A DNA stretch of 64,000 bases. Source: Antedon bifida. Its lineage: Eukaryota; Echinodermata; Crinoidea; Comatulida; Antedonidae. The stretch spans positions 3,529,001 through 3,593,000 of the forward strand of contig OY727098.1 of NCBI GenBank assembly GCA_963402885.1. Reading direction: 5' to 3'. Made by a program: the position numbers and the translations under genes. Shown piece by piece: positions 3,253-6,200 of the stretch. The notes beneath the pieces are model-generated. The model did not search any database. It saw only the letters and a list, made by a program, of their open reading frames with translations, and was not told where the DNA came from. Position 1 is the stretch's first letter, and each line of letters opens with the position of its first letter.

Positions 3253-6200
3253 GTAAAGTTCAATATCTAATTACTGTAGTATCCAATTCACACACAGAAG
3301 TTGTTTTGCTATTGCCTCTCGTTGTGTTGCATTATCTGCTTTCAATTTCATTTGTGTACCGTCTTCATTTTCAATCAATAAAGCTCTGTCGAATGTAATT
3401 CAGATCATAAATTAAACACAAAGACACTGTCAATAGTATACGCTCAACTGGGAAAAATCCAAGCTAAATTATATACCAGTATGGGTATCAACCTCTAATA
3501 GATGTACAAGCTGTAAGAATAGACCGAAGAGAACAGTGCCTACCATTATCAGCACAGAAATAATCATTTGCATTAATAAATTCTTTTTTTTTTGTGCACC
3601 ATATCTAATTACAGTATTACCCAATTCGCACACATTTTAAATATCAATTCCTGATCAAAACAAATACACCTCAAATTGTATCTTGATACAAATATATAAA
3701 TGTCTATATTTTATTGAAAAAAAAACCAAATATATTAATAATAAATTATAAATAAGTTTTATATTCTAATTCGCAAAATATCTTCCAAAAAAGAGTTACT
3801 GCGCAGTTGTCTTTTATGTCGTTTTGATTTTTGTCTGTAGATTTCACACACCTCAATTATCATACGCATGAAACGCCATGTGTGTCAAAATATTCATCTT
3901 TTTACCAATAATAAATGAAGTAAATTATGGGAAATACTGGGTAGATTTACCAGTACTTTAATGCTAACAATATTCACTAGTCCTTTCATAAGTAGTCTTA
4001 AATTTTATGTTTGTTCTATACTTTTTTTTTTTTGCAGACAAAGTTTTAAAAAATTTATTTGGTGTTTTGAAAGGAGGTCATTTTGAAAACTCCACAACTG
4101 GGGAGAGTGCTATTGACCTGTTTTTTCTTGAGGTAATTCCAGTGATACCAACGAAATTCCGACCGGTAAGCGATATTTTTATTTTCGAGTAGCATTTTGG
4201 TTTTTTTAAATTAGTGAAAACATCTACAAATTAATATAATATTTAATGGTTCTGCTTCTTGTTAGGTATCTGCTATGGGTGACAAACGTTTTGAAAACCC
4301 ACAAACAGGGGGTCTTACAAGAGTGTTGAAAGACAGCCAGACTCTGTCACAACTACTGTTCTTTAGTCAAAATGAGCACAATGAAGAATTTCTGAAGGAT
4401 TTTGATAAGGTTAGTTTATCCTTTATTTTTAAATTTTAATTGTAGAAGATACGTATATATATGTTAGATATGTTCAATCTTCCGTCTTCCTCAATTAAAC
4501 GCCTGCAACACGATGCATTGCGTAATCACAAGTAGAAACCGACGACGCAACAATCGCCGGTTTTATTTCACGGAGGCATGGGAAAACACAATTATTCCAA
4601 GGGCATTTTTTGTTGCGTTACATTGCATCACTAGTGGGAACCAAGCTTAAGGGAGGTCTGTTCTGTGCTTGATTTATTAAATGATTAGTTAAAATAATAA
4701 TAATAATAACATTTATTATTTAGAGTATACTGGCAATGGTTCCAGGAAAGAGCAACACAGAGAAACTGCAAAATGCGTGGAGTGTTCTACAAACTCATGT
4801 CAACAGTTTGATAGACAGTGACATGGACAAGTTATCTACAGAAAACTTCCCAGGTGTTAAACAGGTAAGTAATTTCTTTCTGATACCCCTTATAGCCCTA
4901 GCCATTTTTTTTACTGAATTAAAAAATCAAACTACTCCAGAGTTAAACTACCAGAGTTGAACACCTGAAAGCACTCCACTCTTCACATTTTAAAAAATCT
5001 TGATTTAAAAAGAGTTACACTTATTCTTTAACTTTAAACCTAAATTTTTTTTTTATTCAGATTCTTGAAAAGAAAGAGGGGCTATTTCGCAAACACATGA
5101 TGGGTAAACGTGTCAACTATGCTGCACGCTCCGTCATATCGCCAGATCCTTTCATAAACTCTGACGAAATAGGAATACCTGATATTATCGCTAAGAAGTT
5201 AACATATCCGCAACCTGTGACCGAGTGGAATGCCCAGGAATTGCGCCGTGCCATTATGAACGGGCCAAATAAACATCCTGGGTACATATTTAATTTGATT
5301 TGTTTTTTCTGTTTTATTATCAGATAATAAGATTCTACAATACCATTGAAACTAACTTTAATGTCGTTGGATTGTAAAACTTTTTTCTACCTTAAAAACT
5401 GTTCACCCTGTGTGAATAGAAGGCTCATGTGGTGCACACAAAAAAATAATTATTAATGCAAATGATTATTTCTGTGCTGATAATGGTAAGCCCTGTTCTC
5501 TCTGGCCTAATCTTGCAGCTTGTACATCTATTAAGAGGTTGATACCTATAATGGTATATGATAAAGCTGAGATTACTCCCAGTTGAGTGTATACTATTGT
5601 CTTTATGTTTAATTTATGATCTTAATTTCATTCGACAGAGCTTTATTGATTGAAAATGAAGATGGTACTCAAATGAAATTGAAAGCAGATAATGCAACAC
5701 AGCGAGAGGCAATAGCAAAACAACTTCTAACACCACAGAATCCTCGGCATGCCATCACGGGACAGAAACGAGTTCACCGACACATTAAAAATGGAGATGT
5801 ACTCTTGTTGAATCGGCAACCTACATTACATAAGCCAAGTATCATGGCTCACAAGGTATTCAAAATGTCTTGCTGCTCTCAATACTGAAAATCATGGGGC
5901 TGGCCTAATATGTCTGGTTTTTATTAAATGTTAGTATTCCCATTTTTTTTTCAATGGTAATAAATAACTTACGGCCTTCTGGAACTGAAGAGAGGCCACT
6001 GGCCGTATTCACCAATCACACTTAAGTGAGATATTTCCCTTAAATATTAAGTATTTCCCATAAATTGCATTCACTTAAAGCTCAGGTACAGGCATGAATT
6101 TTAAATATAATATCTGGTTAATTGTACATAAATCAAATATTTGTAACAGAAATCAAGACGAAAAAACATGAATTTCCCTTAATATGGTCAAATACAAAAT

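Follow-up and report, generated by a model that had tools for sequence, protein, structure and literature searches.

Several described systems share single features with the locus reported here. In MMBIR-type templated insertions, an inverted copy is inserted near its template, which under the search rule applied there lies within 100 bp (PMC8421209), and short-range template switches leave a reverse-complement fragment from a single switch-and-return event, with a fragment maximum of 128 in the great-ape gold-standard set (PMC7954356). Insertions flanked by direct repeats are known from Daphnia neointrons, in which the footprint of a staggered break consists of direct repeats of 4-12 bp (PMC4202315). 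In RNA, reverse complementary matches surround exons that are circularised or skipped (PMC8330042), and intronic editing complementary sequences, for example in Gria2, make a segment of an intron complementary to an exon (PMC7045468).

In the crinoid Antedon bifida, intron 4 of the RNA polymerase I gene POLR1A contains an inverted copy of a segment of the same gene. It resembles the MMBIR-type insertions in being an inverted copy close to its template, but the template lies 1.8-2.4 kb downstream rather than within 100 bp, and the copy, 304 nt long, combines at most 1 nt of microhomology with a 34-nt flanking duplication; compared with short-range template switches, the fragment is much longer and the template much farther away. 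As in the Daphnia neointrons, a direct repeat flanks the insertion, but here it measures 34 nt instead of 4-12 bp, an existing intron was hit and the template is identified. Measured against the figures compared for these relatives, the POLR1A copy is the longer one or has the more distant template (PMC8421209, PMC7954356, PMC4202315). As in the circularised and skipped exons (PMC8330042), complementary arms bracket exons, here exons 5-8 on both sides, but the downstream arm is partly exonic, with the exon 9 acceptor and coding sequence in it, and the pairing is a prediction from sequence. It differs from the editing complementary sequences of the Gria2 type (PMC7045468) in that the intronic partner is a literal inverted copy of about 300 nt, four introns upstream of the exon with which it is predicted to form a duplex. 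Our literature searches, several of which gave nothing on the subject, did not ask for POLR1A by name, and we make no claim that such a case is absent from print.

The window, a 64,000-nt stretch of the A. bifida assembly (contig OY727098.1, positions 3,529,001 to 3,593,000, forward strand), was analysed together with a gene model whose exon 4 fragment begins at an arbitrary position, 2984, and not at a mapped acceptor. The joined exons gave human RPA1 as their best match (PDB 7vba_A, E 1.3e-94) and were closer to the human chain than to the yeast chains, and Pfam recovered RNA_pol_Rpb1_2 (E 3.1e-41) and RNA_pol_Rpb1_1 (E 2.4e-10), so that the first-pass annotation had identified the gene correctly. 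In the same genome, COX1 is found on contig C27 and has in-frame TGA codons, a trait of animal mitochondria among others. Its exon figures, with exon 5 starting at 4038, exon 8 ending at 5281 and exons 5-8 adding up to 634 nt, agree with the AG/GT borders (Table 1). Both this sum and the 217 nt of exon 9 equal 1 modulo 3. Intron 4 comprises 785 nt (3253-4037).

Self-comparison recovered the inverted pair: before trimming, 5427-5728 matches the opposite strand of 3604-3296 with 88.4% identity in 310 columns (E 2.65e-109), and trimming of this match to the insertion borders gave the coordinates of copy and source used throughout. In the trimmed alignment, 271 of 305 columns are identical. The part corresponding to exon 9 comprises 89 columns with 3 mismatches, and in the part corresponding to intron 8, which is 216 columns long, 185 columns are identical, 22 are mismatched and 9 belong to 4 gaps. 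The earlier description of 3296-3602 as the reverse complement of 5429-5728, with the exon 9 acceptor and 90 nt of coding sequence inside the repeat, therefore holds for the inverted copy and for the acceptor, but the copy is diverged, not exact, and its coding part is 89 nt long. The two arms are 1,830 nt apart, and exon 9 itself is intact and conserved with respect to human RPA1.

Table 1. Coordinates in the window of the inverted copy, its source, the flanking direct repeat, the neighbouring exons and a short repeated element.
Feature	Position	Strand	Basis
Inverted copy (insertion), POLR1A intron 4	3297..3600	(-)	Alignment to reverse complement of 5431-5727
Source segment: exon 9 acceptor with the 208 nt of intron 8 before it and the 89 nt of exon 9 after it	5431..5727	(+)	Alignment; exon 9 in frame in RPA1
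Left copy of 34-nt direct repeat (target-site-duplication-like); 10 intron nt between repeat and exon 4	3263..3296	(+)	30/34 identical to 3601-3634
Right copy of 34-nt direct repeat	3601..3634	(+)	30/34 identical to 3263-3296
POLR1A exon 5	4038..4165	(+)	AG/GT borders
POLR1A exon 6	4266..4409	(+)	AG/GT borders
POLR1A exon 7	4724..4864	(+)	AG/GT borders
POLR1A exon 8	5061..5281	(+)	AG/GT borders
POLR1A exon 9, first 89 nt inside source segment	5639..5855	(+)	AG/GT borders; RPA1 match
Terminal-inverted-repeat element	1853-2002, 6673-6841, 8662-8756, 9060-9210, 12298-12405, 15890-16039, 22578-22721, 26676-26860, 43973-44125, others		

When the genome (315,563,634 bases in 27 contigs) was searched for 5429-5728, two places only came up, the source and the copy; the method passes over simple repeats and very frequent words and scores no more than its best candidates, which here numbered two. 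On this result, a dispersed mobile element carrying POLR1A exon 9 was rejected. A search against Rfam gave nothing above the gathering score.

A direct repeat of 34 nt, overlooked in the first-pass annotation, brackets both ends of the copy, which therefore resembles an insertion made in one event together with a target-site duplication. The repeat abuts the ends exactly and is absent from the source segment, as in an insertion at a staggered break or with a target-site duplication. By base composition, the probability of such a match arising by chance is about 5e-13, or about 8e-11 when slack at the borders is allowed. In an empirical control, 4 of 400 random intervals (100-600 nt, same region) scored as high as these flanks and 8 of 400 passed a looser cut-off of 12; the high-scoring intervals presumably lie in tandem or simple repeats, and the empirical test gives only moderate support. 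At most 1 nt is shared at either junction today, and junction microhomology may have decayed since the insertion.

The same flank test was applied to other repeats around the gene. A region of 264 kb contains 37 low-copy pairs that align over 60 columns or more and lie no more than 20 kb from each other. Four of them are inverted, including the POLR1A pair, and one of the three others involves a repeat with a further copy. Among the 74 members of these pairs, only the copy in intron 4 passed, which is no excess by itself, since 8 of 400 random intervals pass the cut-off of 12. Another low-copy inverted pair (G000:C11:3454034-3454611 / 3473571-3474150; 590 columns, 90%), with 19 kb between its members and a cluster of direct duplicates next to it, failed the flank test.

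The two copies of the flanking repeat differ at 4 of 34 positions (about 12%), and between the intron copies 22 of the 207 columns without gaps are mismatched (about 11%), in addition to the 9 gap columns. The two duplications are therefore similar in age, as a single event predicts, and the size of the divergence indicates that the insertion is old and probably no slip of assembly. Divergence at this level exceeds usual heterozygosity and is far above sequencing error, and the genome search found no third copy; an assembly artefact or chimeric join is accordingly extremely improbable, even though the copy comes from one assembly only and the differences in its exon part are all synonymous, as they might be between alleles or diverged haplotypes.

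We consider it probable, at roughly 0.72, that the copy is an old, decaying templated insertion from the same gene, now most likely a tolerated scar with a small effect or none on RPA1. Such an insertion would have begun with a break or a stalled fork within the first 44 nt of intron 4, and repair would then have copied about 300 nt, in reverse orientation, from 1.8-2.4 kb downstream. By one possible route, the break was staggered, and two overhangs of 34 nt were filled in around filler taken from the same gene, which would produce the direct repeat. Short-range template switches follow a four-point model, and a switch that returns upstream of where it departed would likewise give a flanking duplication; by this second route, the polymerase would have left intron 4, copied the opposite strand about 2 kb downstream and returned 34 nt upstream of its point of departure. 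Either route would give the anatomy in one step.

The flanks could also be the target-site duplication of LINE-type machinery that reverse-transcribed unspliced POLR1A pre-mRNA and inserted the product in antisense. The presence of intron 8 together with exon 9 in the copy fits an unspliced template, and of the marks of LINE-mediated insertion (TPRT) a target-site duplication is present. However, the 3' end of the copy, in sense reading, has neither poly(A) nor another tail, since the copy stops inside exon 9 directly at the flank, and a source 2 kb away in the same gene would rather point to local DNA repair. We regard a retrocopy as decidedly unlikely.

The substitutions between the arms bear on whether pairing has been maintained. 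Of 25 in total, 12 are transversions and 13 are transitions, and 7 of these transitions leave a G·U pair while 6 break the pair. About half is what is expected without selection, and there is thus no sign that pairing was maintained; selection for pairing was rejected on these counts. The mismatches are clustered: a stretch of 87 nt holds 16 of the 25. In permutations, for which the window size was picked with the data in view, p is 0.003 for all mismatches and 0.020 when the intron part is taken by itself.

In the exon part, all three differences among the 89 columns are third-position and synonymous, where a freely decaying copy would be expected to carry about 1.7 to 4.2 non-synonymous differences. 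The probability that a neutral copy shows none is 0.023 at the rate of the whole intron part, 0.029 when averaged over rate uncertainty and 0.015 at the rate of the flanks, and it is 0.18 at the rate outside the dense block 3454-3540 (6 of 120 columns), a block chosen after looking. These values span 0.015 to 0.18 according to the rate chosen, and we treat the apparent constraint on the exon-matching stretch as weak and not decisive. The synonymy may perhaps reflect chance, local differences in rate, conversion from the source or the copying of a diverged allele.

For the templated insertion, then, speak the flanking direct repeat, the matched divergence of flanks and intron copies, the two places in the genome, the G·U count and the intact exon 9; against it stand the scarce microhomology, which today falls short of the signature applied to MMBIR insertions, the length of the copy, a footprint that at 34 nt is long for a staggered break, the synonymous differences of the exon part and the moderate outcome of the empirical flank test. 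That the likeliest present state is a tolerated scar follows from the age of the insertion and from substitutions that look like decay without maintenance of pairing.

The arms nevertheless retain a strong predicted capacity to pair in the pre-mRNA. In the minimum-energy fold of 3253-5855 (-830.4 kcal/mol), 276 of the 304 nt of the copy are paired with the source arm and the exon 9 acceptor lies within the duplex, which bears out the earlier suggestion that the arms could pair over about 300 nt and bury this acceptor. Three controls, in which only the bases of the copy were shuffled (single-base, not dinucleotide, shuffles), reached -546.1, -551.7 and -547.7 kcal/mol with 12, 0 and 0 nt of the copy paired with the source, and the duplex is therefore favoured at equilibrium. 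The predicted duplex could lead to back-splicing, to a transcript that skips exons 5-8 or to edited exon 9. Since loss or circularisation of exons 5-8, like skipping of exon 9, breaks the frame, any effect would more likely lower RPA1 than provide a useful isoform.

It has to be considered whether the arms act as a functional self-pairing element, which would promote a 634-nt circle of exons 5-8 and their skipping and, through the broken frame, lower RPA1 output. In C. elegans zip-2, intronic matches of 7 and 13 nt promote both back-splicing and skipping (PMC8330042), and the strength of the predicted duplex, the frame and the lack of non-synonymous differences in the exon part of the copy are all compatible with such an element. 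On the other side, the substitutions have no bias towards keeping pairs, 9 gap columns interrupt the arms, and the downstream arm is complete only 1,690 nt past the intron 4 acceptor (4037 vs 5727), so that an intron of 785 nt can, on this kinetic argument, be spliced out before its partner is transcribed. We hold a functional element to be unlikely. The first-pass annotation had gone further and proposed a built-in self-antisense arrangement that could limit or tune RPA1 output; this role is possible but unsupported, because the anatomy is that of a one-step insertion, the substitutions are unbiased and intron 4 is possibly removed before the downstream arm exists.

A copy born by chance might instead serve as an editing complementary sequence and make 89 nt of exon 9 coding sequence accessible to ADAR. 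The stretch of exon 9 paired in the predicted exon-intron duplex has 39 adenosines, 24 of which would be non-synonymous if read as G. Long duplexes tend toward promiscuous editing, and since the stretch is conserved, the majority of recoding events there would probably do harm. Such a guide is very unlikely at POLR1A, although Gria2 offers a known intronic example (PMC7045468). We are equally doubtful of a combined reading, in which one repair event would have made POLR1A self-complementary. The intron 4 copy would then fold over the exon 9 acceptor and the 89 coding nt, and part of the pre-mRNA would end as a 634-nt circle, as a skip that breaks the frame or with an edited exon 9, while selection would preserve the exon-matching part of the copy because it restrains RNA polymerase I.

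The surroundings contain further repeats. A short element bounded by terminal inverted repeats (AAGCTCTGTCTACACTATCAAAC...), presumably a MITE, is abundant, with 17 places in the window and 37 in the 264 kb, and several of its copies include an internal 21-nt tandem repeat. Several copies lie in POLR1A, some of them opposed, for example 6673-6803 / 9060-9190 (89% complementary), and because of these the inverted copy is not the sole pair of arms in the transcript. Copies at 12155-12220 and 40975-41074 lie directly behind coding-looking stretches, and the open frames 11881-12258 and 40666-41061, which by eye we take to belong to POLR1A and to an ELAV-like RNA-binding gene, run into the element. 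At 19920-20187, two tandem units of 133 nt, 98% alike, contain the element and probably represent a recent tandem duplication. Another dispersed repeat is found in intron 4 at 3820-3900, where about 80 nt recur, with 73-88% identity, at no fewer than 39 further places of the genome, some of these matches covering other parts of 3745-3900.

After the templated insertion that we favour, the arms would have become able to pair in the pre-mRNA, and some back-splicing, skipping of exons 5-8 or editing would be possible. If the arms matter in RNA, POLR1A would be a clear natural case of a single repair error that gave a housekeeping gene a substrate for circRNA formation, skipping or editing, and one in which the source, the copy and the flanking scar can all still be read. 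If they do not matter, the locus suggests that an essential gene can long tolerate a transcript able to form a duplex of about 300 bp across one of its splice acceptors. Either way, POLR1A of A. bifida offers what we read as an inverted templated insertion, still legible, from 2 kb away and with a flanking duplication of 34 nt.
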